Source of the DNA: Spirochaetota bacterium
GTDB lineage: Bacteria; Spirochaetota; UBA4802; UBA5550
Reading direction: 5' to 3'
Assembly (NCBI GenBank): GCA_017999915.1
Contig: JAGNKX010000012.1
Location: 62,001 to 126,000 of the forward strand
Length of the DNA stretch: 64,000 bases
Shown: piece after piece, positions 4,139 to 35,352 of the stretch
How the letters are laid out: every line of letters starts with the position of its first letter
How positions within the stretch are numbered: position 1 is the stretch's first letter
The notes under the pieces: model-generated
The model's database searches: none
Told to the model about the DNA's origin: nothing
The model's input: only the letters and a program-made list of their open reading frames with translations
Translations under genes and position numbers: made by a program

Positions 4139-4337
4139 TGGTGCGTTCCTTGGCGGATATTTATTAAAAAAGACATGATTTGCTTTATTGATTATAAATT
4201 CGTTTATGCATAGTCAAGTTATTTTTACCTCGTTGACTCGCCGGGAAGGCGCCATGGCCCCTTATATTATACTGCTACCCCTTATATCCTTGCCGTTAAC
4301 GGTCGTACATTTATCGAATTGATCGCAACGCGCGTAA

Positions 4338-4360
4338 ACCCCGTAGCTTGCTGCGGGGTA
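4338..4360. repeat. Hairpin repeat, copy 1 (terminator-like)
   Basis: An inverted repeat with arms ACCCCGTAGC and GCTGCGGGGT around TT (one G-T pair) is followed by TATTTTG. The same core, flanked alike, recurs at 44674-44697. It sits in the 557-bp gap between the divergent lipoprotein and SCP2 genes. It could be a rho-independent terminator or a dispersed palindromic repeat; two copies in 64 kb favour the latter. Confidence 0.65.
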
Positions 4361-4451
4361 TTTTGTCGATAATCAGGCGCGAGATATTCAAGCACTCCCG
4401 CTTTTTTTTCATGAACGCGCCCAGGGAGAGCCGTTGGGGCATTAAAAATGG

Positions 4452-4480
4452 TTGACAGGTTATGTGTATTTATCGATTAT
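4452..4480 (+). promoter_or_regulatory. Predicted sigma-70-type promoter of the molybdenum-hydroxylase operon
   Basis: A perfect -35 box TTGACA (4452-4457) is followed after 17 bp by GATTAT (4475-4480), a passable -10 box. It points toward the SCP2 gene at 4696, giving a leader of about 210 nt. The rest of the gap from 4139 to 4695 holds only the hairpin repeat and AT-rich DNA, with no recognisable gene. Confidence 0.5.
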
Positions 4481-4487
4481 CGATAAA
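4469..4487. promoter_or_regulatory. 19-bp palindrome overlapping the -10 box, candidate operator
   Basis: Perfect 9-bp arms TTTATCGAT and ATCGATAAA flank a single T. The palindrome covers the predicted -10 box at 4475-4480, the classic position for a repressor site. The GntR-family protein encoded at the end of the downstream operon is the natural candidate to bind it. Palindrome seen directly; regulator assignment inferred. Confidence 0.5.
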
Positions 4488-4695
4488 CAATAGTTGATAA
4501 GCGATATATTGTTGTCCCGGTTTGCGCCCGGTTTCCTGTTTCTTGCGCGTTTTCATGGATTGTCCATGGTCATCTGACCACGAATAATTCGCATACATCG
4601 AATATCAGAAGGCCGGATGTATCATCATCAGCCTTCTTTGATGCATGTTTTCGGATCGGTCTATAAGCATTTAAATAAAAAATCAGGAGAAAGAT

Positions 4696-5115
4696 ATGAA
4701 ATACTGGAAAGATTCGCAAGAAGCCGTCACCGCCATTAAAAAGATGTGGGATTTAATCGGAGAAAATCAAGAGCTCCGGGAAGCCGCGAAGAAGGTTAAT
4801 CAGCTCATACTCTTCGATTACTCCGTCGATGAGCCCAACTGCGGCGTATGGTTCGACTGCCGCGATGGCGGTTATACTGTTGGAACCGGGATACCCAGCG
4901 ATACGCCCGACCTGACCATGAGCTGCTCCCTCGATGATGCCCATCTTTCATGGATGGACCAGCTGAACCCGGTGATAGCCATTACGCGCAAGAGGGTTAA
5001 GGTAAAGGGAAACGCGACCGGGATGCTCAGGCTGGTCCCCAAGCTTAAAATCGTGAAAGAAATATACAAGAAGGCCCTCACTGATCTGGGCATGGCTGAC
5101 AAATTAAACATGTAA
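4696..5115 (+). CDS. SCP2 sterol-binding domain protein
   Basis: The 139-residue soluble protein has the outline of a stand-alone SCP2 (sterol carrier protein 2) domain: an early helix, a block with GVWFDCRDGGYTVGTG, PDLTMSCSLDDAHLSW, and a C-terminal VKGNATGMLRLVPKL segment. SCP2 domains form a hydrophobic tunnel that binds fatty acyl-CoAs, sterols and other lipids. AGGAGAAAGAT precedes the ATG as a good ribosome site. It is the first gene of the operon, 90-100 bp ahead of the molybdenum hydroxylase, so it may deliver or hold a hydrophobic substrate for that enzyme. The ligand is unknown. Confidence 0.8.
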   Translation: MKYWKDSQEAVTAIKKMWDLIGENQELREAAKKVNQLILFDYSVDEPNCGVWFDCRDGGYTVGTGIPSDTPDLTMSCSLDDAHLSWMDQLNPVIAITRKRVKVKGNATGMLRLVPKLKIVKEIYKKALTDLGMADKLNM

Positions 5116-5204
5116 CACCATTGCCGGGAACCGCAGGGTAAGCCGGAGCTTCGGCGAAGATCCGCACCCGTCAACGCGTTTCCCGCAGATGATATCAAGG
5201 AGAA

Positions 5205-7877
5205 ATGCTGACAATGAAAAAAGTAACATTTAAAGTGAACTCGGTGCCAAACGAGTTCATAGTCGACGAGAAAACGGTCCTCATCGATCTGCTTCGCAAG
5301 GACCTTCACCTCACCGGGACGAAGCAATCCTGCGACCGAAAGGGACAGTGCGGAGCGTGCACCGTGATCGTGAACGGGAAGACCGCCCTGTCTTGCACGA
5401 AGAAGGTCGTGGACCTGGAGGGCGCGGACATCATCACCATCGAGGGGCTGGGCACGCCGGACAATCCCCACCTGATACAGGAGGCCTTTGTCCTGGCCGG
5501 GGCGATCCAGTGCGGCTTCTGCACACCGGGTATGATCATGGCGGCCAAGGCGCTGCTTGATGTAAATAAAGATCCTAGCGTGGATGACATAAAGAAAGCC
5601 CTGAAGCGCAATCTGTGCCGGTGCACCGGGTATAAAAGCATCATCGAGGCCATCCAGCTCGCCGGCAAATTTTTGAGGGGCGAGACAACGCCCGACAAGG
5701 TGCGACCGGCGGCATCTGGGAAGAAGATCGGTGTTTCCCATCCGCGTCCCTGGTCCATGAACAAGGCCTGCGGCGCCGTGCGGTATACCGATGATATTCT
5801 CATTCCGGGCGCGCTTGAAGTCGCCGTTACGAGAAGTCCGCATCATAACGCGAAGATCATATCGATCGATTATTCCACAGCCGAAAAAATGCCGGGGGTG
5901 GTCGGCGTCATGACCGCCGCGGATATCAAGGGAACAAACAGCTCCGCCATGATCGTTCCGGATGAGCCCGTTCTCTGTGCGGATCTTGCGCCGGTCATGG
6001 GGGCCCCGATCGCGGCGGTGATAGCCGAGACCAGGGAGCAGGCCCGGGCCGCGGCGGCGGCCGTGAAGGTCGAGTACGAGGTCCTTCCCCGTATCTCCAC
6101 TCCGGCGGAAGCCCTTGCCGAGGGAGCGCCGCAGGTGTTCCCGGATCCGAATTATCCCAATGAGGTCTATACGGTCGCGCAGATCCGGGGGGACTCGGAA
6201 AAGGCCCTTGGCTCATCGGCGCATGTCATAGAAGATAAATTCTCCGTTCAACTCGTCCACCAGGCCTGTCTTGAACCGGAAGCCGCCCTGGCATGTCTGG
6301 ACGGCGAGGGCGATGACGCCCAGCTGGTGGTCATCGGCCGCTCCATTTCCATCCACATGCACGTGGGTGTTCTCGCCGGCGCCATCGGCTGGGACAACCT
6401 GCGCTACGTTGAGGCATATGCCGGAGGGCAGTTCGGGATAAAAATGGACCTCACCACCGAGCCGATCGCCGCGGCCGCGGCTGTTCATTTCAGGCGGCCC
6501 GTGCGCTACGTGGCCACCCTGGAAGAATCGCTGATGATGACCCCGAAACGCCATCCCTACAGCATGGATGTTAAGCTGGGGGCCGATGCGAATGGGAAGA
6601 TCACGGCCTATGACATCGACTTTACCGTTGATAACGGGGCGCATACATCGGTGGGACTGGTAATCATGGACCGTTCCATCGAAATGCTGAGCGGATGCTA
6701 TGACCTTCCCAACGTTAAGGCCGCGGGAAGACTTGTCTATACCAACGACGCCTGGGGCGGCGCGGCGCGGGGCGCCGGTCCCCCGCAGGTGAATTTCGCC
6801 CTTGAGTCGGCCATTGATATGATGGCGGCGAAAATGAAGATCGATCCCTGGGAATTCCGCATGAAGAACGCCGTCAAGCCGGGCGGATGCACGTCCTCCG
6901 GGCAGGTGGTCGACCAATGGGAATACAACGGCTGCCTCGAGCGCATGAAGCCTTTATATGAGAAAGCCTGCAAGGAAGCGAAAGCGCATACCACGGGGGA
7001 CATCCTCAGGGGCGTGGGCCTTGCGGGGTCCAGCTTCGGCGTCGGGTCCGCCGGTGACGTCTCCTGCATGGCTGTCGAGCTTGACCCCGACGACGGATTG
7101 ACCGTATACGGGGCGGTTGCCGAGCCAGGTGAGGGCAATGACGCCATGCTGACCCAGATCGCGTCCCATTGCATGGATATTCCAATGAACAAAATCAGGC
7201 TGTCGACCCGCGACAGCGAGATCGCGCCTGATGCGGGCGTATCCGCGTCATCGCGCCAGACATACATGTCCGGAGGCGCGCTGGTCAAGGCGATAGGAGT
7301 GCTCAAGGCCGCGATGAAGGAAGCCGGGGCAAAGACGCATGCCGACCTGGTGAAGGCGGGAAAACCCACACGCTACATGGGGAAAAATATCCTTACCGAG
7401 GTGAACGGCCTCGACAAGGAAACCGGACAGGGCGATGCGTGGGAATCCTTCATACACGGATCCCAGATGGCCGAAGTGGAGGTCAATGCCAAGACCGGCG
7501 AGGTAAAGATCGTAAAGATGACCACGGTGGTCGACCCGGGGACGATCATCAATCCCCAGGCCGTGCTCGGGCAGGTCGAAGGTGGAGCGGACATGGGGGC
7601 GGGATATGCCCTTCGTGAACACTTCGTAATGGGGAAATCAAAAGACTGGCTCACCTATAAGTTCCCCACTATCTCAACGCAGTTCGACCAGGAGACCATT
7701 CTCCTGGAGACTCCCAGGGCGAGAGGGCCCCTGGGCGCTACAGGGGTGGGTGAATTTACTCTCGTGGCCACGCATCCGGCGATAGCCAATGCCGTTTACA
7801 ACGCCACCGGCGTGCGTTTCCATGATCTGCCCATCACGCCGGAGAAGGTATTGGCGGCACTGGGGAATAAAAAATAA
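5205..7877 (+). CDS. Molybdenum hydroxylase of the aldehyde oxidoreductase/xanthine dehydrogenase family (fused Fe-S and Mo domains)
   Basis: The 890-residue protein joins two [2Fe-2S] domains to a molybdopterin-binding catalytic region, like the single-chain aldehyde oxidoreductase (Mop) of Desulfovibrio. The plant-type cluster is seen in SCDRKGQCGACTV with a later LSC; the second cluster is in QCGFCTPG and NLCRCTGY. The Mo region shows AGGQFGIKMDL and GGAARGAGPPQV. The catalytic base is Glu850 in GATGVGEF near the C-terminus. No FAD domain is present and no FAD subunit gene is adjacent, so electrons probably leave through the clusters to a separate acceptor. The ATG at 5214, with AAGGAG 11 bp upstream, is an equally good start. 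The substrate cannot be read from sequence. Confidence 0.9.
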   Translation: MLTMKKVTFKVNSVPNEFIVDEKTVLIDLLRKDLHLTGTKQSCDRKGQCGACTVIVNGKTALSCTKKVVDLEGADIITIEGLGTPDNPHLIQEAFVLAGAIQCGFCTPGMIMAAKALLDVNKDPSVDDIKKALKRNLCRCTGYKSIIEAIQLAGKFLRGETTPDKVRPAASGKKIGVSHPRPWSMNKACGAVRYTDDILIPGALEVAVTRSPHHNAKIISIDYSTAEKMPGVVGVMTAADIKGTNSSAMIVPDEPVLCADLAPVMGAPIAAVIAETREQARAAAAAVKVEYEVLPRISTPAEALAEGAPQVFPDPNYPNEVYTVAQIRGDSEKALGSSAHVIEDKFSVQLVHQACLEPEAALACLDGEGDDAQLVVIGRSISIHMHVGVLAGAIGWDNLRYVEAYAGGQFGIKMDLTTEPIAAAAAVHFRRPVRYVATLEESLMMTPKRHPYSMDVKLGADANGKITAYDIDFTVDNGAHTSVGLVIMDRSIEMLSGCYDLPNVKAAGRLVYTNDAWGGAARGAGPPQVNFALESAIDMMAAKMKIDPWEFRMKNAVKPGGCTSSGQVVDQWEYNGCLERMKPLYEKACKEAKAHTTGDILRGVGLAGSSFGVGSAGDVSCMAVELDPDDGLTVYGAVAEPGEGNDAMLTQIASHCMDIPMNKIRLSTRDSEIAPDAGVSASSRQTYMSGGALVKAIGVLKAAMKEAGAKTHADLVKAGKPTRYMGKNILTEVNGLDKETGQGDAWESFIHGSQMAEVEVNAKTGEVKIVKMTTVVDPGTIINPQAVLGQVEGGADMGAGYALREHFVMGKSKDWLTYKFPTISTQFDQETILLETPRARGPLGATGVGEFTLVATHPAIANAVYNATGVRFHDLPITPEKVLAALGNKK

Positions 7878-7898
7878 ACGTGTCGCCATTTTGTCAAT

Positions 7899-8258
7899 AT
7901 GAGCGCAGACGAAGAAAGAAAGATCAAGAGGCCGTATAACCGGACAATAGCCGGTGTTCAAATTTCGTTCAACGGGGAGGGGTTTTTTGTAAACCCCTCC
8001 CTCTGGACGGATGAGATATTCGAGATCCTGGCCCATGAAGCCGGCGTGGAGGAAATAAGCGATACGCAGCGCATGATCGTCCACTTCGTCAGAAAATTCT
8101 ACGATGAGCAGGGGAAGGCGCCCCTGAACCACCACCTGAAAGTCGGGACCCATATGACAATGGCGGAGCTCGAGGCGCTCTTTCCCGGCGGCATTAAGTA
8201 CGGACTTCGCCGTCTGGCGGGCCTGCCTGATCCCAAGGTCTGCGCGGGAAGGTATTAG
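7899..8258 (+). CDS. DsrC/TusE-family sulfur-carrier-like protein
   Basis: The 119-residue protein has the DsrC/TusE/TusA-partner fold signature: GVQISFNGEGFFVNPSLWTD near the N-terminus, TQRMIVHFVRKFYDEQGKAP in the middle and RRLAGLPDPKVC near the end. Family members carry persulfide on a conserved Cys in a flexible C-terminal arm. That Cys is present (Cys115), but the second Cys of true DsrC, before the AGLP block, is an Arg here, so it is TusE-like. The arm continues for four residues (AGRY) after Cys115, whereas the Cys is normally second from last. It lies between a molybdenum hydroxylase and a cysteine desulfurase. No clear ribosome site precedes the ATG, so coupling to the upstream gene is likely. 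Confidence 0.85.
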   Translation: MSADEERKIKRPYNRTIAGVQISFNGEGFFVNPSLWTDEIFEILAHEAGVEEISDTQRMIVHFVRKFYDEQGKAPLNHHLKVGTHMTMAELEALFPGGIKYGLRRLAGLPDPKVCAGRY

Positions 8259-8259
8259 A

Positions 8260-9423
8260 ATGGAAATTCAAGATAAGCTTATATACCTGGACAATGCCGC
8301 CACTGTTTTCCCGAAACCTGATGCGGTCCTGAATAAAATGCTGGATATCTACAGGCAGTGGGGCGTTTCTCCCGGACGCGGCGGATATGACCTGGCGGTG
8401 ATGGCCTCGGATATGGTAATGGATGTCCGGAAGCAGCTGTGCCGTTTTTTCGGGAGCGATGATCCGGAGCGGGTGATATTCGCGTCCAACGCGTCGGACG
8501 CGCTTAACCTGATTATCCAGGGAATGATCGAACCGGGCTGCCATGTCGTGAGCACGCGGCTTGAGCACAATTCAGTGCTTCGCCCCCTGCATCACTTTCA
8601 GGAGAAAGGAGTACTGGCCTATGACCTCGTTGAATCTGACGGGGAGGGGCGCATAGACCCGGAAGATATCGCCCGCGCGATAAAGCCGGAAACGGTGATG
8701 GTGATCGTCAACCATGCCTCCAATGTTACGGGAACAATTCAGGATGCCGAGGCTATCGCCCGGGTCTGCAGGTATCATGAAGTACCTCTGATCCTTGATG
8801 CGGCGCAGAGCGCCGGGTTGGTCCCCATACGCATGAAGGAATGGGGTGTAAGCGCTCTTGCCTTTACGGGGCACAAGTCGATGATGGGTCCTTCCGGTAT
8901 CGGGGGACTTGTGTTTGCCGGTGATGTTGATATCCGGGGAACAAGGTTCGGAGGAACCGGGATTGATTCTAAAAGCCTGGTGCATACCCAGGCGTTTCCT
9001 CATCGCCTGGAGACAGGTACGCCGAATTTTCTGGGTATCATCGGCCTTGGCGCAGGATTGGAACACGCGGAGCGGCTCGGCATTGATGATATACGGAACC
9101 GGGAGGTCGAACTGGCGAAGCATTTGTCGCAGGGCTTAAGAGAAATATCCGCTGTCCGCATGCGTGGTCCTTCAGGCTGGGATAAGCGTTTGGGCGTTAC
9201 CCTGGCAACCGTTGAGAACATGGACCCTGATGATGTCGGCGCAATTCTGGACGGAGACTACGGCATTGCCGTCCGGACCGGGCTGCATTGCGCGCCACTG
9301 GCGCATCGGGATTTAAAAACATTCCCGCAGGGAGGTGTCCGTTTCAGCATCGGGCCATTTAATACGATCAATGATATCGATGCAGCCATCTCCGCCATGG
9401 CCGAGATCGGCAAAAATAAATAA
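8260..9423 (+). CDS. Cysteine desulfurase family protein (class V aminotransferase fold)
   Basis: This 387-residue PLP enzyme begins with the IYLDNAATVFPKP signature of cysteine desulfurases. The PLP lysine is Lys206 in FTGHKSMMG and the probable catalytic cysteine is Cys344 in TGLHCAPLAH. It resembles the subfamily often found beside molybdenum hydroxylase and selenium genes rather than housekeeping IscS. It would strip sulfur from L-cysteine and pass it on as a persulfide. The start lies one base after the DsrC-like stop (8258), so the two products are probably made together. In this context its sulfur probably ends on the Mo cofactor of the upstream hydroxylase, through XdhC and perhaps the DsrC-like protein. 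Confidence 0.88.
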   Translation: MEIQDKLIYLDNAATVFPKPDAVLNKMLDIYRQWGVSPGRGGYDLAVMASDMVMDVRKQLCRFFGSDDPERVIFASNASDALNLIIQGMIEPGCHVVSTRLEHNSVLRPLHHFQEKGVLAYDLVESDGEGRIDPEDIARAIKPETVMVIVNHASNVTGTIQDAEAIARVCRYHEVPLILDAAQSAGLVPIRMKEWGVSALAFTGHKSMMGPSGIGGLVFAGDVDIRGTRFGGTGIDSKSLVHTQAFPHRLETGTPNFLGIIGLGAGLEHAERLGIDDIRNREVELAKHLSQGLREISAVRMRGPSGWDKRLGVTLATVENMDPDDVGAILDGDYGIAVRTGLHCAPLAHRDLKTFPQGGVRFSIGPFNTINDIDAAISAMAEIGKNK

Positions 9424-9497
9424 GCGCCGCTGTACATAAATGAACAGGTGGGCAGTCAGGTCTGCTTGATATTTAGAAAAGGAGCGATAGTGTACCG

Positions 9498-10547
9498 ATG
9501 AAAGATCTTTTCCACGCATGTGCGGATCTCCTTGAATACGGGGAAGACGTGGCAATGGTCACGATCGTAAACCAGGAAGGGTCGGCGCCGCGTACGGCAG
9601 GAAGCAAAATGCTGGTGCGCAGGGACGGCTCGATTGTCGGCACCATCGGTGGCGGCATATTCGAGGCCCGGGCAATCGCCATGGCGCATGAAGTTTTCCG
9701 GAGCGGACAGGCGATGCTCGGGTCGTTCCGGTTCTCATCCAGCGATGTTTCCGGCATGGACATGATATGCGGCGGGAATGCGGAGATATTCCTGGACTTG
9801 CTCCGGTCCTGTCATCCTGAAAACGCCGCGGTGTGCAAAGCGGTCTGCGATGTGAGGCGCCATGACCTGGATGCCTGCCTGATCACTAAAATTGTTACAG
9901 GTTCGGGAAGTGAAGACCTGGTGAAGCTGGCCCTTGTAGCCAGGGGCAGGAAACCCGTGGGAATGCTTCTGGCCGAAGAAGACAGGGAGGCATTGGAGCA
10001 TTCTGCCGGGGGACGCTTCCCCCGGCGTGTAACGCTGGGAGAAACGGAGCACCTTGTTGAGCCCGTCCATTATCCCGGCACGGTTTATATTTTTGGAGCA
10101 GGCCACATATCGCAGAAACTGGCGCAATTGACTCACCTTGTCGATTTTCAAACCGTGGTGCTGGATGACCGGGAAGAATATGCAAACGGGAAGCGTTTTC
10201 CGCAGGCGGAGCGGATCATCGTGCCTGAAAACATGGGAACCTGCATGAGGGACCTGCGGATCACCAGGAACGGCTACATTGTCATCGTGACCAGGGGACA
10301 TGCCTACGATATGGTTGTTCTTGAGCAGGCTCTTCAAACCGAAGCCGGATATATCGGGATGATAGGAAGCAGAAAAAAACGTGAAGACATATACCGGCAC
10401 TTGCGCCAGTCGGGGATACGGGAAGATGCGCTGGCGAGGGTCCATTCTCCGATCGGGATCGATATCGAAGCGGAAACGCCGGAAGAGATAGCCGTGAGCA
10501 TTGCGGGCGAGCTTATCCAGGCGAGGGCGAGGTTGATCGATGGCTAA
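9498..10547 (+). CDS. xdhC: XdhC-family molybdenum cofactor sulfuration/insertion protein
   Basis: The 349-residue protein has the two-part XdhC/CoxI layout. The N-terminal part holds VTIVNQEGSAPRTAGSKM and GTIGGGIFEARA. The C-terminal Rossmann part holds YIFGAGHISQKLAQL, VLDDREEYA, VTRGHAYD and GYIGMIGSRKK. XdhC proteins bind the molybdenum cofactor, protect it while a desulfurase adds the terminal sulfido ligand, then insert it into the apo-hydroxylase. It follows the desulfurase by 74 bp and overlaps the next gene by 8 bp. A second XdhC in the window (34276-35352) probably serves the other hydroxylase. Confidence 0.9.
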   Translation: MKDLFHACADLLEYGEDVAMVTIVNQEGSAPRTAGSKMLVRRDGSIVGTIGGGIFEARAIAMAHEVFRSGQAMLGSFRFSSSDVSGMDMICGGNAEIFLDLLRSCHPENAAVCKAVCDVRRHDLDACLITKIVTGSGSEDLVKLALVARGRKPVGMLLAEEDREALEHSAGGRFPRRVTLGETEHLVEPVHYPGTVYIFGAGHISQKLAQLTHLVDFQTVVLDDREEYANGKRFPQAERIIVPENMGTCMRDLRITRNGYIVIVTRGHAYDMVVLEQALQTEAGYIGMIGSRKKREDIYRHLRQSGIREDALARVHSPIGIDIEAETPEEIAVSIAGELIQARARLIDG

Positions 10548-11175
10548 GGTTGAAGACCATGCGGCTACGATCGTTCTTGCGGCGGGATATTCAAGCAGGA
10601 CCGGAGGGGCCTTCAAGCCTTTGCTGAAGCTGGGCGATCGCACGGTCGTGGAGAGAGCGGTTGCTTCGCATCTTGATGCGGGCATGCGGGACGTCAGGGT
10701 GGTCGTGGGGTATCGCGCCGATGATGTCATCGATGCCGTCAGGCATCTTGGAGTCAGGATCGTGAGAAACAGGAATTTTGACCAGGGGATGTTTTCTTCG
10801 GTACAGGCCGGAACGGCGACCCTGGAGCCCGGGGTCCAGGCATTTTTTATCATGCCTGTCGATATTCCACTTGTTGATCCCGCGACAATTCGGGCAATCC
10901 TTGAAAATCATGAAAGGAATCATTCCGGCATCACCTATCCGGTATACCGTGGCACAAAAGGGCACCCTCCCCTGATATCAAGAAGATATATTCCTGAGAT
11001 CATGAACACTCACGCGCCCAATGGCCTGAGGGGAATATTGAACAGCTACGCGGACGAGGCCATTGGCGTGGAAGTGGACGATGAGGGAATTCTCTTGGAT
11101 ATCGACACGGTGGAGGACTATCGCCGGCTCCTGGCTTACGGAAGCAGGGACGATATTCCGAATCACGATCGTTGA
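10540..11175 (+). CDS. MocA-like molybdenum cofactor nucleotidyltransferase
   Basis: The 211-residue protein shows the MobA-like NTP transferase pattern: VLAAGYSSRTGGAFKPLL at the N-terminus (nucleotide loop), a middle IMPVDIPLVDP metal-binding block, and KGHPPLIS, DIDTVEDY toward the end. The GAFKPLL form and GHPPLI motif resemble MocA, which attaches CMP to molybdopterin to make the MCD cofactor of xanthine-dehydrogenase-family enzymes; whether CTP or GTP is used cannot be decided here. The start lies inside the end of xdhC (8-bp overlap), indicating coupled translation. Confidence 0.85.
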   Translation: MAKVEDHAATIVLAAGYSSRTGGAFKPLLKLGDRTVVERAVASHLDAGMRDVRVVVGYRADDVIDAVRHLGVRIVRNRNFDQGMFSSVQAGTATLEPGVQAFFIMPVDIPLVDPATIRAILENHERNHSGITYPVYRGTKGHPPLISRRYIPEIMNTHAPNGLRGILNSYADEAIGVEVDDEGILLDIDTVEDYRRLLAYGSRDDIPNHDR

Positions 11176-11220
11176 ATCCGGCCGATTTTATATAAGAAAA
11201 CATGATGGAGGCATGGGGCG

Positions 11221-12243
11221 ATGCTTAAAGTAAGAGTGGAAGATGCCGTCGGTATGGTTTTGTGCCATGACATTACCCAGATCATACCAGGAGAGTTTAA
11301 GGGGAGGGCTTTTAAAAAAGGACACATCGTTACGGTTGAAGATATACCTAAAATGCTGAGGATAGGGAAAGAGAACCTGTATGTCTGGGAAAAAAAGGAG
11401 GGATACCTGCATGAAAACGAGGCCGCCCTCCGCATTGCAAAGGCCATTGCCGGTCCGGGCATATCCCTGACGGAGCCCCGGGAGGGGAAAATCAACCTGG
11501 TCGCCGAGCTGCAGGGCTTACTGAAAATAAATGTGAACGGGCTTGATGAAATAAATAATGAAAATGAGGTGGTTGTATCCACCCTCCATAGAAATCAAAT
11601 CGTTGAAAAGGGAACGGTTGTTACCGGCACGAGGGTCATTCCCCTGGTCATCGACCACGAAATTATCGAACGAGTCGAAGTGCGGGCCGAACGATATAAG
11701 CCCATAGTCGAGGTAAAGCCCCTCTCCGGAATGCGCGTCGGCGTTGTGGTTACCGGGAGCGAGGTTTATAAAGGACGGATCGAGGATAAGTTCAGCCCGG
11801 TCGTAATTGAGAAAGTTACAAAACTTGGATGCAGCGTCATACAAAAGGTCAATGTGCCGGATAGCATTGAAATGATCTCGGATAACATCAAGATCATGGT
11901 GCGTGAAGGCGTTGAATTGATCCTTGTCACGGGCGGCATGTCCGTTGATCCGGACGATGTAACTCCTTCAGGAGTCGTGGCCGCGGGCGGCACAATTGTT
12001 TCCTACGGGGCACCGATTTTACCGGGATCAATGTTCATGGTTGCTTATATAGGCGATACGCCCGTATTGGGGCTGCCCGGGTGCGTCATGTATTCCAGGA
12101 ACACGGTCTTTGACTTAATACTGCCCCGTGTCCTGGCGGGAGAAAAGATTACACGCAAGGAGATAGCCGGTCTTGGCCATGGAGGGCTTTGCGCCAATTG
12201 TCTTTCCTGCAGGTTCCCGTCATGTTCTTTCGGGAAAGCATAG
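11221..12243 (+). CDS. MoeA/CinA-like molybdopterin-binding protein with Cys-rich tail
   Basis: The 340-residue protein has a MoCF-type molybdopterin-binding core: VVVTGSEVYKGRIEDKF, VTGGMSVDPDDVTPSG and LGLPGCVMYSRNTVFD are the typical blocks of MoeA/MogA relatives. An N-terminal domain of about 150 residues starts with VRVEDAVGMVLCHDITQ, as in shortened MoeA-like proteins found in molybdenum hydroxylase clusters. The last 20 residues have four cysteines (CANC, CRF, SCS; spacing C-x2-C-x2-C-x4-C), which could bind Zn or a cluster. The product probably helps molybdate insertion or cofactor transfer for the operon's enzyme. ATG with GGAGGCATGGGGCG upstream supports the start. Confidence 0.82.
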   Translation: MLKVRVEDAVGMVLCHDITQIIPGEFKGRAFKKGHIVTVEDIPKMLRIGKENLYVWEKKEGYLHENEAALRIAKAIAGPGISLTEPREGKINLVAELQGLLKINVNGLDEINNENEVVVSTLHRNQIVEKGTVVTGTRVIPLVIDHEIIERVEVRAERYKPIVEVKPLSGMRVGVVVTGSEVYKGRIEDKFSPVVIEKVTKLGCSVIQKVNVPDSIEMISDNIKIMVREGVELILVTGGMSVDPDDVTPSGVVAAGGTIVSYGAPILPGSMFMVAYIGDTPVLGLPGCVMYSRNTVFDLILPRVLAGEKITRKEIAGLGHGGLCANCLSCRFPSCSFGKA

Positions 12244-12309
12244 AGCCTTCTTCTGGTTCAGTGGTTTGATATCCATGGGCATAGCATCAATTGTGAAGGA
12301 GTGTCGGGA

Positions 12310-12978
12310 ATGACCGCGTTAAAATCTAAAAACATCGGCTATGAAGTGGCTGAAATATTAACCGACAGGATAATCCGCATGGATTATAAGCCGGGCGATA
12401 GAATCCTGGAAGTTAAAGTAGCTAAAGAATTCAGCGTCAGTCAAAGTTCCGTGCGGGAAGCATTGCGGATCCTCGAGAGCAGCGGGCTGGTCGAGATCAA
12501 CCAGAGACACGGGACCTATGTGACGCAGTTATCCCTGAACGACGTGGATATTCTCTATGATCTCATCGAAGACATATACTCGCTCCTCATCCGGAAGGCG
12601 ATGGAGCACAAAACGCCGGAGAACATTAAAAGAGTCGTGGATGTCCTGAATCGTATCGAAATCGCCGCGGATAAAAACGACGTGGACGGCTATTTTTACA
12701 GTATTTTCGAATTCGCCATCGTGGCCATTGAGGCGGTCGACAGTCCCCTGCTGAAAAAGATAATAACCGATACATGGTATAACAAGAGAAGGGTCGAGTA
12801 CCTGACGCTGAAATTGAGAAAGAACGAATTGAAGAAGAATGTGAAGTATTTCACGCTGCTCCAGAGATACATGGTCGAATCCAACATGGAGAAGCTCGAT
12901 AAAACCATCCGTGATTATGTGCGGAATGAAAAGAAGATAGCCATGGAGAGCCTGGCCAGGGTCATTAAGGCCGGATAG
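12310..12978 (+). CDS. GntR-family transcriptional regulator (FadR/FCD type)
   Basis: The 222-residue protein has an N-terminal winged helix of GntR type: ILTDRIIRMDYKPGDRI, VAKEFSVSQSSVREALRIL and LVEINQRHGTYV. The all-helical C-terminal part (about residues 80-220) fits an FCD-like ligand domain, though its metal-binding histidines are not obvious. The ATG at 12310 is preferred over the GTG at 12301 because AAGGAG lies 8 bp upstream of it. It is the last gene of the molybdenum-hydroxylase operon and probably controls it through the palindrome at 4469-4487; the ligand may be the enzyme's substrate or product. Confidence 0.88.
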   Translation: MTALKSKNIGYEVAEILTDRIIRMDYKPGDRILEVKVAKEFSVSQSSVREALRILESSGLVEINQRHGTYVTQLSLNDVDILYDLIEDIYSLLIRKAMEHKTPENIKRVVDVLNRIEIAADKNDVDGYFYSIFEFAIVAIEAVDSPLLKKIITDTWYNKRRVEYLTLKLRKNELKKNVKYFTLLQRYMVESNMEKLDKTIRDYVRNEKKIAMESLARVIKAG

Positions 12979-13040
12979 CCTGTCGCTGCAACGGACATCT
13001 CTGTTTTCCCCGCCGCTGTTCCTGTTTTACAGGGGACTCG

Positions 13041-28796: not shown

Positions 28797-29636
28797 TCAG
28801 GCGTATTCCAGGAGGCGCATGAGGAGGTTGCCGGCCACCTTACGGCGGTAGGCGGCCCCGCCGCGCAGATCGTCAATGGGCATCACCGCTTCCCGCGCCG
28901 TCCCGGCGGCGGCGGACAGGGTTTCCTCCGTAAGCCGCTTTCCTGCAAGTATCGATTCCGCAGCGCCGCACCGTATGATCACGGGCCCTGTGCCGCCCCA
29001 GGCCAGGGCGGCCCCTTCGATCACGCCGTTCCCCGAGAGACGCACCAAAGCGGCCATGCTCACGATGGAGCAGGCCAGGGCCCTGCGGGCGCCGACCTTT
29101 TCGAAATGCTGAATCACGGGGCCTTCTGGCAGTTTGAATCTAACCGAGGCCAGGACCTCGCCGGGCCGCAGGCAGGTCCCGCCCGGGCCGGTGATGAAGT
29201 CGCCTATCTTCACGCACCGCCTGTCACGGGCCGAGACCAGGTCCAGCTCCGCGTCCAGTACATGGAGGGGCGGCAGGGAATCGCCGGCGGGCGATGCGTT
29301 GCAGATGTTGCCGCCGATAGTCCCCATGGCCCGGATCAGGGGGGAGCCGATTTCCCTAACCGCACGGGCAAGAACCGGCGGCACCGCGGCGGCGGCCGGT
29401 TCCTTCAGCATCTCGGCAAAGGTTGCGCATGCCCCGATGGTCACCGTGGATCCTGCAAGAGTGACTCCCTGCAGCTCCGGTATCCGTTCGAGGCAGATAA
29501 GGGAGGGCGGGTCGGCGGTCCCGCGTCGCAGGCGCACCAGGAGGTCAGTGCCTCCGGCGAAAAGGGACGCCCGAGGATTCTCTTCCATGATCGTCCAGAG
29601 CTCTCCCATCGAAGAGGGGAGGAATACCGGTCTCAT
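28797..29636 (-). CDS. Xanthine-dehydrogenase-family FAD-binding subunit
   Basis: The 279-residue protein has the FAD-binding subunit signature of the family: SLFAGGTDLLVRLRRG near the N-terminus, AVREIGSPLIRAMGTIGGNICNASPAGD in the middle and FEKVGARRALACSIV toward the end. It passes electrons from the Fe-S subunit to NAD+ or another acceptor. The ATG at 29636 overlaps the stop of the Fe-S subunit gene (ATGA, 29633-29636), which fixes the start; a longer in-frame reading to 29981 is an artefact of the Fe-S gene. It is the last gene of the second hydroxylase operon. Convergent with the GNAT gene, 11 bp away. Confidence 0.92.
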   Translation of the reverse strand: MRPVFLPSSMGELWTIMEENPRASLFAGGTDLLVRLRRGTADPPSLICLERIPELQGVTLAGSTVTIGACATFAEMLKEPAAAAVPPVLARAVREIGSPLIRAMGTIGGNICNASPAGDSLPPLHVLDAELDLVSARDRRCVKIGDFITGPGGTCLRPGEVLASVRFKLPEGPVIQHFEKVGARRALACSIVSMAALVRLSGNGVIEGAALAWGGTGPVIIRCGAAESILAGKRLTEETLSAAAGTAREAVMPIDDLRGGAAYRRKVAGNLLMRLLEYA

Positions 29637-30109
29637 CGGTCCTCCTCTACGCGCAGGCGGCGCGCCGCCAGCTCCACCGCGTCCACGATTTTGACGTAGC
29701 CGGTGCAGCGGCAGATATTGCCGCTCAGCGCCTCGCGTATCTGCTCCCGCGTGGGTTCCGGGTTCGCGGACAGGAGCGATACGGCGGAGAGGACCATGCC
29801 CGGCGTGCAGAAGCCGCACTGCACCGCCCCGGCCTCGATGAAGGCCGCCTGGACCGGATGGAGCTCTCCCTCCGGGGCGAGTCCCTCGATGGTGGTGACG
29901 CGCCGGCCGCCGAGCTGTGCCGCGGTCATGAGGCACGAGAGGCGGCTCGTCCCGTCCACCAGGATCGTGCAGGCGCCGCATTCGCCTTCGCCGCAGCCCT
30001 CCTTGGTGCCGGTGAGGCCCAGGTCGTCCCGGAGCAGGTCCACGGCGCGGCGGTCCGGCGCGGTGTCCACGATTCGTTCAGTCCCGTTCAGTATGAATGC
30101 AATCTTCAA
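29633..30109 (-). CDS. Xanthine-dehydrogenase-family [2Fe-2S] subunit
   Basis: The 158-residue protein carries both [2Fe-2S] centres of the family: EGCGEGECGACTILVDG with a later LSC for the plant-type cluster, and QCGFCTPGMVLSA with NICRCTGYVKI for the second. Length and motifs are normal for the small subunit of three-part molybdenum hydroxylases. Four-base overlaps with the Mo subunit gene (30106-30109) and the FAD subunit gene (29633-29636) show a tightly coupled operon. Confidence 0.95.
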   Translation of the reverse strand: MKIAFILNGTERIVDTAPDRRAVDLLRDDLGLTGTKEGCGEGECGACTILVDGTSRLSCLMTAAQLGGRRVTTIEGLAPEGELHPVQAAFIEAGAVQCGFCTPGMVLSAVSLLSANPEPTREQIREALSGNICRCTGYVKIVDAVELAARRLRVEEDR

Positions 30110-32403
30110 TCCTTTCCTCCTCCGCCATGATCATCGTGCCTGCCCATGATCCGCTCCGGCTTCAGGGGGGAGCGCGCGGGGCGGAAGCCGAGGGCGTCTC
30201 CCACGGCGCCGGCGATGGCGGGCAGGGGGCCGTTGACCCCCACCTCGCCCACGCCTTTCATGCCGCAGGGACCGGACGGCTCCTCGGAGTCGACGGACCG
30301 GGATACGATGTCCGGAACGTCCAGGGCCGTGGGGACAGCGTAATCGGAAAAGCGCGGGTTCAGGATGCGCCCCCGGTCGAGGAGCACCTCCTCGCCCAGG
30401 GCGTAGCCGATGCCCTGGGCCACGGCGCCCTGTACCTGCTGGTTGAAGGAGGCCGGGTTGATGAGCTTCCCCGCGTCGGTGACCGCGGCGTAATCGCTGA
30501 CGGTGACCGCGCCGGTGAGCTCGTCGATCTCGATCCGCGCGACATGGGCGGCGTAGGAAAATATCTCGTGGGGAAAGCCGAGGCGGAAGGAGGTCCCCGT
30601 GCGGGGGACATTTTGCACAACGGGCATGATGAAGCGGTTCGTGCAGAGGCGCTCCGCTTCGGGCATGATGCCGGCCAGGAATTCCAGCGGCGTTCTTTTC
30701 CCGGTGGGGCGGTGGACCACGCAGCCCGGCTCAAGGTCCAGGGTCCCGGTGTCGTCGACGAGCATGACCATGGCGGCCCAATGGAAGAGGCGCTTTTTCA
30801 TGTCCTCGCAGGCGGGTATGAGGGCGTTCGCATAGGTGTAGGTCGTCCTGCTGGCCGAGGAGGAGCCCGAGGGCAGGGCGCGGTCGGTGTCCGGCTGTTC
30901 CAGCTCCATGCGCGGCGCGTCCTGGTTGAGGATGGCGCCGGCGATCTGAACGAAGGTGCTGGAATTGCCCTGGCCCATGTCGGAAATGCCGTTGTAGACG
31001 CGGATGGTTCCGCGCGGCGTGAGCTCTATCTTGGCGATGGCCGCGTCGGGGAGGCCCCTGCCGTAGCCCATGGCGTTGAAGACCGCGGCGATGCCCGTGC
31101 CGCGGCGCCTGAAGAGCCCGGCCGAGGACTTCCATCGCTCCCGCTCCTTCCAGAGGGGATCGCTCCTGACCGCCTCCAGGCACTGGCGCAGCGCGATGGA
31201 GGAGGACACGGTGACGCCGACGCAGTTCCGGTCTCCCGCCCCGAGGGCGTTGGCGATGCGCAGCTCCAGTGGGTCCATGCCGATCCTGGCGGCCAGGAGG
31301 TCCATCATACCTTCGAAGGCGAAGCTTACCTGGCACACGCCGAAGCCGCGCATGGCCCCTGCCACGGGATTGTTCGTGTACACGCACCATCCCTCGATGC
31401 GCGTGTGGGGGATGGCGTAGGGTCCGCCGGCGTGTTCCATTCCCAGCTCCATCACCTCGCCGCCCAGGTGGGCGTAGGCGCCCGTGTTATAGTAGAGGCG
31501 GCATTCCAGGGCCGCGAGTTTTCCCCTGGACGAGGCGCCGAGCCGGTAATACATGCGGGCCCCATGGCGCTTGTATCCGGCGACGAAGGCCTCCTCACGG
31601 TCCCACCGCATGGAGACGGGACGCCCGCCCGCGTGGAGGGCCGCCAGGGCGAGAAGGCACTGGACCGTGGCGCCGTCCTTGCCGCCAAAGCCGCCGCCGA
31701 GGAAGGGGGCGATCACATGAATCCGGTCTATGCCGATTCCCAGGGCATGGGAAATCTCGAAGCGGTCCCTGAAAGGGGCCTGGGTGGATACTGTTATGGT
31801 GATGCGCCCGTCCTCGCCGAGACGCGCGGTGCCGCACTGCCCCTCGATGAAGGCGTGGTCCTGGAAGGGCACTTCGAAGCATTGTTCCAGTATGATATTG
31901 CACTCCTTGAAGGCGGCGGTCGTGTCTCCCTTTTCTATGAGGGCGCTGAGCAGCAGGTTTCCCTGATCGTGCACCGCGGGAGCGCCGGGCCTCAGCGCCT
32001 CCTCGGGATCGAAAACCGCCGGCGTTTCCTCGATGTCCGCCCTGACCAGGGAGCGGGCGCGCCCGAGGGTTTCCCGGTCAGTGGCGATCACCAGGGCCAC
32101 GGGATCGCCGCAATGGCGGACGCGGTCCCCGGCCAGGACCGGCTGGTCCTTGTGGACGATGCCCTGCAGGTTGGTGCCGGGCACGTCCTTTGCCGTAAGG
32201 ACTGCGATCACGCCGGGCAGGGCGGCGGCCGCGGATGAGTCGACGCCGCGTATCCTTCCGCTCGGCACGCCCGCCCGCACCGCGCCGGCCCAGAGGGTGT
32301 CCGCGGGATGACTGTCGAAGGCGTAGCGCTCGACGCCCCGTACCTTGGCTTCCGCGTCGAATCGGGGCTGACCCCTGCCTATGCTGTTCATGCCGTTACT
32401 CAT
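30106..32403 (-). CDS. Xanthine-dehydrogenase-family molybdopterin-binding subunit
   Basis: The 765-residue catalytic subunit shows VRGVERYAFDSHP at the start, then PGVIAVLTAKDVPG, APFLGGGFGGKDGATV (Mo cofactor loop), NPVAGAMRGFGVCQVSFAFEG and the catalytic Glu720 in GMKGVGEVGVNG. The ATG at 32403 has AAAGGAAG upstream; the 100 or so in-frame codons before it only mirror the MFS gene in another frame. The substrate is not certain: the partner MFS carrier suggests uptake of a small heterocycle such as a purine or related ring, but the operon holds no purine genes. Confidence 0.93.
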   Translation of the reverse strand: MSNGMNSIGRGQPRFDAEAKVRGVERYAFDSHPADTLWAGAVRAGVPSGRIRGVDSSAAAALPGVIAVLTAKDVPGTNLQGIVHKDQPVLAGDRVRHCGDPVALVIATDRETLGRARSLVRADIEETPAVFDPEEALRPGAPAVHDQGNLLLSALIEKGDTTAAFKECNIILEQCFEVPFQDHAFIEGQCGTARLGEDGRITITVSTQAPFRDRFEISHALGIGIDRIHVIAPFLGGGFGGKDGATVQCLLALAALHAGGRPVSMRWDREEAFVAGYKRHGARMYYRLGASSRGKLAALECRLYYNTGAYAHLGGEVMELGMEHAGGPYAIPHTRIEGWCVYTNNPVAGAMRGFGVCQVSFAFEGMMDLLAARIGMDPLELRIANALGAGDRNCVGVTVSSSIALRQCLEAVRSDPLWKERERWKSSAGLFRRRGTGIAAVFNAMGYGRGLPDAAIAKIELTPRGTIRVYNGISDMGQGNSSTFVQIAGAILNQDAPRMELEQPDTDRALPSGSSSASRTTYTYANALIPACEDMKKRLFHWAAMVMLVDDTGTLDLEPGCVVHRPTGKRTPLEFLAGIMPEAERLCTNRFIMPVVQNVPRTGTSFRLGFPHEIFSYAAHVARIEIDELTGAVTVSDYAAVTDAGKLINPASFNQQVQGAVAQGIGYALGEEVLLDRGRILNPRFSDYAVPTALDVPDIVSRSVDSEEPSGPCGMKGVGEVGVNGPLPAIAGAVGDALGFRPARSPLKPERIMGRHDDHGGGGKD

Positions 32404-32417
32404 ATGGTTTGCTTCCT

Positions 32418-33623
32418 TTAGACACCGGTTTCTTCCGGGTTTTTCCTGTTCCCCTTCATCATGCCGACCGCGGCCAGGCAGACCAGGCAGGCCGCGGCCA
32501 GGCAGGCGCACAGGATGAAGAGGGAGCTGACGGGCATGCCCGAAGCGATGAGATGCCCTCCCAGGAAGGGGCTGATGAAATAGCCCGCGTCCATCATGAA
32601 GAGGGTGAGGTTCGTATTGAATCCCCGGAGTCCGGCCGGCGAGAGGCCGAACATCACGGCGTTCATGAGGGGCAGCGCGACCCCGATGGAGAGGCCGTAC
32701 ATCGCGGCGACGCCGGTAAGCCATTCGGGCGAAACGACGCGGACCATGGCGGTGAACGAGGCGATAAGGAGGATCAGGAAAGCGCCCGCGACGGGAAGCT
32801 TCCCGATCCTGTCGAAAAACACGCCGCCGAGGGCCCGGACACCGATGATGACGGCGGTGGAGACGGCGAAAAAACAGCCCACGGCGTTTCCGCCGAGCCC
32901 GGCCGCGCGGTCTTTCATGAAATAGAAAACTGTGGCGTGGGAGAAATATAACATGACATAGGCGGCGAGCATGACCATGATCCTCGGATCGGCCAGGTTC
33001 CTGCGGAGGGCCGCGCCGTCCGGCCTGGATGAGGCCGCGGCCGGGTTCGCCTCAAGGGCAGCGTCGATCCCCTTCTTCGCCGCCAGGAGCAGGCCCAGGG
33101 CGGGGAGCGCGAACAGGGAAATGATCGCGTAGATCCGCGCCTGGCTCCCGGTGACCCGCGAGAGGGCCTCGGCGAGCATGGGCATGACCGCGTAGGGGAT
33201 GAGGGTGACGGTGCTGATCACGCCGAAGCCCTGGCCGCTTCGCTCAGCCGGGATGAAATTCACCACCAGGGTGAAGCTGGCGGAGATGAGCAGGACGAAG
33301 GCGGCCCCGTGGATCAGGCGGAGCAGCGCCAGGGTCGGGATCGACAGGGCCCACGAATAGGAGCAGAGGCACGCGGCCAGCAGGCCCAGTCCCAGGAGCA
33401 TGACCCGGTGTGAGTTCCGGGCATGAAGCCGGGTCATGACGAAGGGGCGCAGGATGAAGGCGGTCATCGGCTCAATGCCGAGGATCACGCCCCTCAGGTC
33501 CCGGGGAATCCCGATGGTGCCGAGGTAATTGTAGAAGCCGTAGAACACGGCCATGTTGAAAAAGGCGAACAGGGTTACCGCGTTGAGGGCTATGAATTCT
33601 TTCGTGAAAAGCTTTTGTGTCAT
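32418..33623 (-). CDS. MFS transporter
   Basis: The 401-residue protein has about twelve hydrophobic spans and a loop with RLHARNSHRVMLLGLGL between spans 2 and 3, as in major facilitator carriers. An amphipathic central loop (GIDAALEANPAAASSRPDG) separates the two halves. It is most like drug- or metabolite-type MFS members; direction and cargo cannot be read. It sits inside the second hydroxylase operon, between the maturation genes and the Mo subunit, so it probably moves the enzyme's substrate or product. Confidence 0.88.
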   Translation of the reverse strand: MTQKLFTKEFIALNAVTLFAFFNMAVFYGFYNYLGTIGIPRDLRGVILGIEPMTAFILRPFVMTRLHARNSHRVMLLGLGLLAACLCSYSWALSIPTLALLRLIHGAAFVLLISASFTLVVNFIPAERSGQGFGVISTVTLIPYAVMPMLAEALSRVTGSQARIYAIISLFALPALGLLLAAKKGIDAALEANPAAASSRPDGAALRRNLADPRIMVMLAAYVMLYFSHATVFYFMKDRAAGLGGNAVGCFFAVSTAVIIGVRALGGVFFDRIGKLPVAGAFLILLIASFTAMVRVVSPEWLTGVAAMYGLSIGVALPLMNAVMFGLSPAGLRGFNTNLTLFMMDAGYFISPFLGGHLIASGMPVSSLFILCACLAAACLVCLAAVGMMKGNRKNPEETGV

Positions 33624-33683
33624 TGACGTGTTCCGGGCTGGATTCCGGTGCCGCTGTTGATTTTACTATGCCGGTTTCTCCCG

Positions 33684-34289
33684 TCAACTCTTTAGCAGGT
33701 CCAGGCATGACCTGTAATCCGCCATGGTGTCGATGTCCATGAGTACGCCCGGATCGCCGCAGGGGAGATATGACGATGACGTCCCGAAGAGGGACAGGAT
33801 ATCCCGGAGGCCGCCTCCGCCTTCGTGAGCGAGTATCGCCGGAGCGCAGCCCATGTCGATGAGGGGAGGATGTCCCTTCCTGCCGTCAAGAACCGGGTAG
33901 ACCACGGCGGACCCATCGCGGTCCGACAGCTCCATGAGGGCCCGCAGGGTGCCTTCCCTGACCATCGGCATGTCCGCGGGCAGGAGGAAGAATTTTCGCG
34001 CCGATACGGGCAGGGCCCGCACGCCGGCCCGCACCGAGGAGAGCATGTCGCCGCCAGGGTATTCGTTCAGGGCCCATGAAGCGCCCAGGCGCTCCGCCTC
34101 CGGGATCATCATTTCCCTGTTGTGCCCGATGACCACGACGATGATCTCCACGCCGGCGGAGCGCAGGGTGTCTATGACCCGTTCCAGCACGGTTTTATCT
34201 CCCATGGGGAGGAGCGGCTTGAAGGCGCCCGCGCGGGAGGAGCGGCCCGCGGCAGGCACGACCGCGGCGATTCCGTCATTCCGCGGCAT
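33684..34289 (-). CDS. MocA-like molybdenum cofactor nucleotidyltransferase, second copy
   Basis: The 201-residue protein has the same pattern as the copy at 10540-11175: AVVPAAGRSSRAGAFKPLL, LLPADMPMVREG, KGHPPLID and MDIDTMADYRS. It likely forms the dinucleotide Mo cofactor for the adjacent three-subunit hydroxylase. It overlaps the end of the second xdhC gene by 14 bp. The xdhC-mocA pairing is the same as in the first operon but the sequences differ widely, so this is not a recent duplication. Confidence 0.86.
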   Translation of the reverse strand: MPRNDGIAAVVPAAGRSSRAGAFKPLLPMGDKTVLERVIDTLRSAGVEIIVVVIGHNREMMIPEAERLGASWALNEYPGGDMLSSVRAGVRALPVSARKFFLLPADMPMVREGTLRALMELSDRDGSAVVYPVLDGRKGHPPLIDMGCAPAILAHEGGGGLRDILSLFGTSSSYLPCGDPGVLMDIDTMADYRSCLDLLKS

Positions 34290-35352
34290 GGGTCTCTCTG
34301 GCGGACCGGGTTGACACCAGCTCGGCTACGATGCTTACCGCGATTTCCTCCGGGGTTTCCGCGCCGATGGGAAGGCCCACGGGGCAGCGAACCCTGGCGA
34401 TATCGCCGTCACCGAGACCGCGCCTGCGCATCTCCGCGTAGCAGACCTCGCGCTTGCGGGCGCTGCCGATCATGCCGATGTATCCCGCTTCGGACCGAAG
34501 GGCCCGGTAGAGAACGGCGGCATCGAAGGCGTGGCCCCGCGTGACGATGACCAGGGCGGCGTTCCCGTCTATGACGATGTCATCGAAGGCGCCGTCGTAG
34601 GATGCAGCAAGAATGATCCGGTCCGCCCCGGGGAACAGGGCGGGGCAGGCGAAATCCGCGCGGTCGTCGATCACGCAGGTTTCGAATCCGACCAGCCTGC
34701 AGAGCGGCTCCAGGCTCCGGCAGATATGCCCTGCGCCGAAGAGATAGACCGTGTCCGCCGGCTTCACCGGCTCGATATAGCGGCGAAGGGACCCCCCCCT
34801 TTCCGGGACCGTCAGGGGCGCCTCCGTTTCAACGACGTTCCCTTCGATATCCTTCAGCGCCTCCGGGTCCCCGGCGATGAATCCCTCCTCTCCCAGGAGG
34901 GCGGTGCGCGTTTGGACTCCGCTGGCGCCGGCGTCGTCGATGGCTGTGACAATGAAGCTTCTTTTCCTGAGGGCGAGGCGTTCCGCGATTTTACCGAATA
35001 CGGCGCGGGGCCCGGCCATGGTCCGGTCAAGGGGTTCGATAAGTGCTTCCATCAGGCCGCCGCAGGCCATGGCCGAAGCGTCGACAATTTCTCCGTCCAG
35101 TGAAAAACGCACCAGGGCGGCCCTGCGGGAGGATATAACCTCGCCGGACATTCGCAATATTGCCGATTCGAGGAGTCCGCCGCCGACGCTCCCGAAGGTC
35201 TTTCCCGATTCGGTTATGACCATGCGGGCCCCCCTGTCCCTCGGGCCGGAGCCTGTTTTATCGATGATGGTGGCCGTCGCAAAGGGCTCATCCGAATCCA
35301 GCAGAGTGTCGATATGGCGAAAAAGCCGCGGCGCCCCCGATCTGTTGCTCAT
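34276..35352 (-). CDS. xdhC: XdhC-family molybdenum cofactor protein, second copy
   Basis: The 358-residue protein has the XdhC layout: TIIDKTGSGPRDRGARM and GSVGGGLLESAIL at the N-terminus, then YLFGAGHICRSLEPL, IDDRADFACP, VTRGHAFDAAVL and GYIGMIGSARKREV in the Rossmann part. AAGGAGG lies 11 bp upstream of the ATG. It is the first gene of the second hydroxylase operon. Unlike the first operon there is no desulfurase or DsrC-like gene beside it, so sulfur may come from the first operon's desulfurase or a housekeeping one. Confidence 0.9.
   Translation of the reverse strand: MSNRSGAPRLFRHIDTLLDSDEPFATATIIDKTGSGPRDRGARMVITESGKTFGSVGGGLLESAILRMSGEVISSRRAALVRFSLDGEIVDASAMACGGLMEALIEPLDRTMAGPRAVFGKIAERLALRKRSFIVTAIDDAGASGVQTRTALLGEEGFIAGDPEALKDIEGNVVETEAPLTVPERGGSLRRYIEPVKPADTVYLFGAGHICRSLEPLCRLVGFETCVIDDRADFACPALFPGADRIILAASYDGAFDDIVIDGNAALVIVTRGHAFDAAVLYRALRSEAGYIGMIGSARKREVCYAEMRRRGLGDGDIARVRCPVGLPIGAETPEEIAVSIVAELVSTRSARETHAAE

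Follow-up and report, generated by a model that had tools for sequence, protein, structure and literature searches.

What does a protein of the DsrC superfamily do in the middle of an operon for a molybdenum (Mo) hydroxylase? The question is raised by a 64,000-nucleotide stretch of DNA from a Spirochaetota bacterium (GenBank assembly GCA_017999915.1, contig JAGNKX010000012.1, positions 62,001 to 126,000 of the forward strand); this whole stretch is called the window here, and the genome carrying it G000. Eight genes on the + strand at 4696-12978 of the window encode an SCP2-like protein, a Mo hydroxylase, a DsrC-superfamily protein that was named DsrCL, a cysteine desulfurase, XdhC, a MocA-like protein, a MoeA-like protein and a GntR regulator. 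The reading we favour, with a probability of about 0.5, is that DsrCL acts as a dedicated accessory protein in the maturation of the hydroxylase encoded in the same operon, most likely as a persulfide shuttle. The presence of a strongly altered DsrC/TusE protein between a Mo enzyme and the sulfuration machinery suggests a sulfur-delivery step without earlier description.

DsrCL and its operon

The original prediction, made from the sequence, proposed that a DsrC-like protein takes persulfide from the desulfurase to XdhC. The open reading frames (ORFs) it named match in order, strand and coordinates, the desulfurase residues Lys206 and Cys344 are exact (in TGHK and GLHCAPL), Cys115 is the single cysteine of DsrCL, and the gap between the DsrCL and desulfurase genes is exactly 1 bp. 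It did not mention the SCP2-like first gene, the GntR last gene or the score of DsrCL below the TIGR03342 cut-off. The features of the operon are:

4696..5115, + strand: SCP2-like protein, 139 amino acids (aa), first gene (PF02036, 33.8 bits; orthologs in both other clusters, L015 and L016)
5205..7877, + strand: single-chain Mo hydroxylase, 890 aa (Pfam Fer2, Fer2_2, Ald_Xan_dh_C, MoCoBD_1 and MoCoBD_2)
7899..8258, + strand: DsrCL, 119 aa (PF04358, 70.1 bits versus a cut-off of 24.9; PDB sequence matches to DsrC; model fold)
8241..8243, + strand: codon of Cys115, the presumed persulfide bearer, which pairs in alignments with the penultimate Cys of DsrC/TusE
8260..9423, + strand: cysteine desulfurase of the TIGR01977 family with Lys206 and Cys344 (422.6 bits versus a cut-off of 377)
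9498..10547, + strand: XdhC, Mo cofactor binding/insertion chaperone (NF045664, 413.6 bits versus a cut-off of 350; XdhC_C and XdhC_CoxI domains)
10540..11175, + strand: MocA-like nucleotidyltransferase (MobA-like NTP transferase; PF12804, 128.7 bits; below the cut-offs of TIGR03310, 146.2 versus 186.45 bits, and of NF045665, 248.8 versus 315 bits)
11221..12243, + strand: MoeA/MoCF-domain protein with a Cys-rich C-terminus CANCLSCRFPSC (PF00994, 82.4 bits; orthologs in L015, L083 and L084)
12301..12978, + strand: GntR/FCD transcriptional regulator, last gene (PF00392, PF07729)

The DsrCL gene starts 21 bp after its upstream neighbour, and the XdhC and MocA genes overlap by 8 bp. An Rfam scan of 4000-13500 gave no match, and promoter and terminator scans returned signals no better than those in shuffled sequence.

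DsrCL scores well above the cut-off of the DsrC superfamily and below that of TIGR03342 (TusE/DsrC/DsvC; 48.3 versus 53.5 bits). Members of the TusE/DsrC/DsvC group have a strictly conserved Cys at the penultimate position (PMC3397948); in DsrCL Cys115 is followed by 4 residues up to the C-terminus and in the two orthologs by 11 and 15 residues, and a penultimate Cys is thus absent from all three. The second conserved Cys of DsrC is replaced by Arg and the gene is not near dsrAB, which sets DsrCL apart from dissimilatory DsrC. The AlphaFold2 model (pLDDT 79.9) has the DsrC fold with a C-terminal arm: Foldseek matched it to 3or2_C and 2v4j_C at E about 1e-7, and every one of its top eight PDB matches is a DsrC or TusE. 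According to the alignment, the AGLPxPxxC arm and Cys115 are the strongest conserved features common to DsrCL and all DsrC/TusE proteins. Purifying selection acts on the gene (dN about 0.15-0.17 versus dS about 0.76-1.28 between orthologs; dN/dS roughly 0.1-0.2), and its position and the arm cysteine have been retained though third-position divergence nears saturation. With dN far below dS and a model fold that matches solved DsrC structures, DsrCL is not a chance ORF. Since the length and frame of the tail differ among the three DsrCL proteins, the strict penultimate-cysteine rule is broken and the tail is unconserved. The tail as a functional extension was considered and dropped, because its length varies with the frame and tracks the overlap onto the desulfurase start.

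In the phylogenetic tree DsrCL forms a clade with 100/100 support. Its branch is very long, with several changes per site, and sets it off from both the dsr-linked two-cysteine DsrC proteins and the single-cysteine ones. The partner enzyme shows the same pattern. It belongs to TIGR01977 by its score and by the pyridoxal phosphate-binding Lys206 and the catalytic Cys344, and the operon desulfurases group with 100/100 support on a long stem that separates them from paralogs, two of which adjoin selD. As each is a separate long-stemmed clade, both DsrCL and the operon desulfurase look specialised.

Two matches to PF02635 (DsrE) were found in G000, one standing alone and the other joined to a TusA domain within one ORF (YedF-like); neither a DsrEFH/TusBCD set, the donor complex of a TusE, nor adjacent PF02635 genes were detected in the genome. 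This leaves the adjacent desulfurase as the most likely sulfur donor. The canonical two-cysteine dsrC of G000 is a separate gene on contig C6 (L048, 162-8327), together with dsrMK, dsrAB, an amidohydrolase-like gene and dsrN (cobyrinate diamide synthase), and this company makes respiration of sulfite, or of a compound related to it, probable for the organism.

Occurrence in related genomes

We compared 46 genomes of the class to which the bacterium belongs and 393 genomes of the phylum Spirochaetota. DsrCL is present in three of the 46 and three of the 393, namely G000, G028 (a Spirochaetes metagenome-assembled genome) and G019, which represent three genera in families f1 and f7. The protein is 75-77% identical to its two relatives. 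All three DsrCL genes found are located in this operon, the order SCP2-hydroxylase-DsrCL-desulfurase-XdhC-MocA is identical, and no other gene separates hydroxylase, DsrCL, desulfurase and XdhC in any of the clusters; in the two relatives the reading frames of DsrCL and desulfurase overlap by 22 and 17 bp. The GntR regulator has no match in the other two clusters (L015/L016). Near the other DsrC loci examined across the phylum, about 20 in number, there is no homolog of XdhC or of the desulfurase; many of these DsrC genes accompany dsrAB and/or dsrN. In the phylum as sampled, DsrCL is the only DsrC-family member linked to XdhC and to a desulfurase. A plasmid search for DsrCL gave no match. Two short peptide patterns derived from the three-row DsrCL alignment, used in a contig scan, recovered one relative, matching G028, a result with little bearing on distant phyla. 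The gene order recurs in three genera and two families, all within one class; the original prediction had named recurrence in distant phyla as support.

Two further genomes carry related clusters. In G020, which belongs to the genus of G019, XdhC and MocA are kept, hydroxylase and DsrCL are gone and the desulfurase is reduced to a C-terminal remnant. This remnant (L082, 5015-5356 on contig C270) lies between XdhC and a pair of genes for a tungsten aldehyde ferredoxin oxidoreductase and a MoaD-like protein, and the locus is a decayed copy of the module. The joint loss of hydroxylase, DsrCL and most of the desulfurase is as expected if they form one module. G002, from another family, encodes a 59% identical hydroxylase that is followed, after a gap of 568 bp, by a SufS-like desulfurase. 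The locus (L125, 1-5680 on contig C144) consists of an iron alcohol dehydrogenase-like gene, the Mo hydroxylase and the desulfurase gene, which is cut by the contig end. A DsrCL hidden in the 568-bp gap was ruled out, as the gap has no ORF of 60 aa and gave no match.

The window hydroxylase is a relative of MOP-like aldehyde oxidoreductases with two [2Fe-2S] domains and Mo-binding domains and without an FAD domain. Its best PDB match is the Desulfovibrio gigas aldehyde oxidoreductase (1sij/1vlb, E=2e-158), and it scores 736.2 bits against the NF045668 cut-off of 1100. Hydroxylases of the D. gigas type proper are encoded in G041 and in a second G002 cluster (L083 and L126; 1639.5 and 1659.3 bits against the same cut-off); within the DNA read, neither cluster has a desulfurase. 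A dedicated desulfurase is present in four of four clusters of the window hydroxylase's subfamily. The window itself holds an internal control outside the system:

28797..35352, - strand: second Mo hydroxylase cluster (three subunits for FAD, FeS and Mo, an MFS transporter, a MocA-like protein and XdhC)

This cluster contains neither a desulfurase nor DsrCL. DsrCL goes with the operon TIGR01977-type desulfurase (3/3) and not with Mo hydroxylases generally.

Elsewhere in the window, 887-2488 and 2543-4138 encode tandem membrane/lipoprotein-like proteins with weak sub-threshold Pfam traces that are 74% identical, and this pair is a recent tandem duplication. A glycyl radical enzyme at 14348-17347 begins with some 200 additional residues that match no Pfam family; by eye they resemble SCP2-like sequence, but their pairwise similarity to the protein encoded at 4696 is weak.

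A possible sulfur relay and its alternatives

In the proposed relay the co-translated desulfurase would move sulfur from L-cysteine onto Cys344, and the persulfide would pass from there to Cys115 on the DsrCL arm. DsrCL would then deliver the sulfur to the Mo cofactor (Moco) held by XdhC, and XdhC would insert the sulfurated cofactor into the hydroxylase. Sulfur as the cargo, the direction of transfer, XdhC-bound Moco as the acceptor and a sulfido ligand on the finished enzyme are the parts that we infer, while the sequences themselves show the genes, their catalytic residues and conserved order, the DsrC fold with its arm cysteine, the missing DsrEFH/TusBCD set and purifying selection. Both transfers have precedents: IscS, given cysteine, places a persulfide on the penultimate Cys of Allochromatium vinosum DsrC (PMC3397948), and in Rhodobacter capsulatus XdhC-bound Moco receives its sulfur directly from NifS4 (PMC2997495). 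The literature searched, outside of which many subscription papers lie, includes no paper containing both DsrC and XdhC. The proposal of a carrier between desulfurase and XdhC is plausible and has partial support: it gains from a real gene with a conserved position, from a specialised partner desulfurase and from the missing TusBCD/DsrEFH donor, while the direction of transfer stays conjectural.

Several points weigh against this relay. No carrier is required for transfer from NifS4 to XdhC (PMC2997495), which may make one superfluous here. The closest characterised enzyme, the D. gigas aldehyde oxidoreductase, has no need of a sulfido ligand and works with an oxo one (PMC3877041), and the statement that xanthine-dehydrogenase-family enzymes need the sulfido ligand, from which the prediction had started, is therefore unsafe for this hydroxylase. 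For Moco-dependent activities of Escherichia coli, tusBCD and tusE are dispensable and tusA and iscS are needed (PMC3831636). With 4, 11 and 15 residues after Cys115 versus one in DsrC/TusE, the docking of DsrCL to its partners must differ from theirs, and part of the fold match comes from the input, since the alignment used by AlphaFold contained canonical DsrC rows. DsrCL has three members only, all in one class, and in G002 no DsrCL lies beside the SufS-like desulfurase and no DsrC was found in the genome.

The strongest alternative, although we consider it unlikely, keeps the partners and changes the route. DsrCL would activate the desulfurase or dock to it, stimulating it, protecting it or guiding it to XdhC in the manner of SufE/TusA-type partners, the sulfur would go directly from Cys344 to XdhC-bound Moco, and Cys115 would have a redox or minor role. 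Direct sulfuration from NifS4 to XdhC is a known route (PMC2997495), the tight translational coupling with the desulfurase gene fits a complex partner, and the residues after Cys115 are variable; the conservation of Cys115 and of the AGLPxPxxC arm is, however, expected if the cysteine carries sulfur.

Rather improbable is a DsrCL that is a regulator or neutral passenger without a role in maturation. A regulatory function has been suggested for some relatives of DsrC, helix-turn-helix-like parts belong to the DsrC fold and are seen in the model, and a GntR regulator is also encoded in the operon; the small number of members and the G002 cluster, which manages with its SufS-like desulfurase and without DsrCL, point the same way. 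Against a passenger stands the retention of position and arm cysteine at a low dN/dS despite near-saturated third positions.

We give still less weight to a destination outside the hydroxylase, which would then be a mere neighbour. The sulfur of DsrCL might go to the molybdopterin dithiolene (the MoaD/MoeB branch), to the tungsten aldehyde:ferredoxin oxidoreductases encoded after the operon in relatives, or into general trafficking. Two tungsten-type aldehyde ferredoxin oxidoreductase-like genes, recognised by eye among the ORFs, continue the G019 cluster, G020 has one such gene and the MoaD-like ORF beside XdhC (also by eye), and E. coli Moco is affected by TusA and IscS and not by TusE (PMC3831636). 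The window operon, however, contains no MoaD/MoeB or tungsten-enzyme gene, and the genes for hydroxylase, DsrCL, desulfurase and XdhC directly follow one another in 3/3 clusters.

Selenium handling, with a selenocysteine lyase-like desulfurase and DsrCL carrying selenium for a selenium-dependent Mo hydroxylase, is very improbable: TIGR01977 (EF2568) was proposed to be a selenocysteine lyase with links to selD and to Mo hydroxylases that depend on selenium (PMC2276186) and G000 has a selD, but a separate TIGR01977-family paralog lies directly before that gene, the operon enzyme falls into another clade, TIGR03309 (YqeB), a marker of selenium-dependent hydroxylases, has no match in G000, and the hydroxylase reaches 557 bits against the TIGR03311 cut-off of 830. 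The operon desulfurase is accordingly most probably not the selenium enzyme, and a selenium system is disfavoured. The paralog and selD are located on contig C3 (L093, 7164-9727), and the N-terminal motif of this selD (SSGUAAK) contains an in-frame TGA that apparently encodes selenocysteine.

Relation to known systems

A relay through DsrCL would combine parts of several known systems. In R. capsulatus, the desulfurase sulfurates the Mo cofactor on XdhC before its insertion into xanthine dehydrogenase (PMC2997495), and the XdhC and desulfurase families are both present in the window operon; unlike NifS4, the window desulfurase is a TIGR01977-type protein whose gene lies in the operon of the hydroxylase, and a DsrC-family protein is absent from the R. 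capsulatus system. E. coli TusE resembles DsrCL in its DsrC fold and in having one functional cysteine on the arm, and it carries persulfide close to the end of the tRNA thiolation relay (IscS-TusA-TusBCD-TusE-MnmA), which starts at a desulfurase, whereas in the window system no TusBCD was detected and there is no link to MnmA, and the cysteine of DsrCL is not penultimate. With the dissimilatory DsrC of sulfite reduction and oxidation DsrCL shares the fold and the AGLPxPxxC arm, but it has Arg in place of the second arm Cys and no link to dsrAB, and G000 has its separate canonical DsrC. Clusters of the D. gigas type (NF045668/NF045664/NF045665) likewise encode a single-chain hydroxylase without FAD, an XdhC of the NF045664 family and MocA-like and MoeA-like proteins; the window hydroxylase, unlike theirs, is below the equivalog cut-off and is accompanied by a desulfurase and DsrCL. 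The EF2568/SelD system (PMC2276186) has a desulfurase of the same family; the operon enzyme differs in its separate clade and in having no selD nearby, the SelD-linked paralog being another gene.

Among D. gigas-related hydroxylases, the group without a dedicated desulfurase predicts an oxo Mo and the group with one a sulfido Mo. More tentatively than the shuttle itself, the sequence comparison would allow a third role for the DsrC/TusE family, in which a deep unnamed clade would be indispensable for carrying persulfide from a dedicated desulfurase to XdhC-bound Moco and would serve single-chain Mo hydroxylases that are sulfurated, unlike the D. gigas enzyme. Sulfur delivery to the Mo of bacterial xanthine-oxidase-family enzymes is known from few cases, all of them, as far as found, direct from desulfurase to XdhC. 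If true, a DsrC-family carrier would be a new step in this process and would extend the family, known from tRNA thiolation and from sulfur respiration, to a third function.

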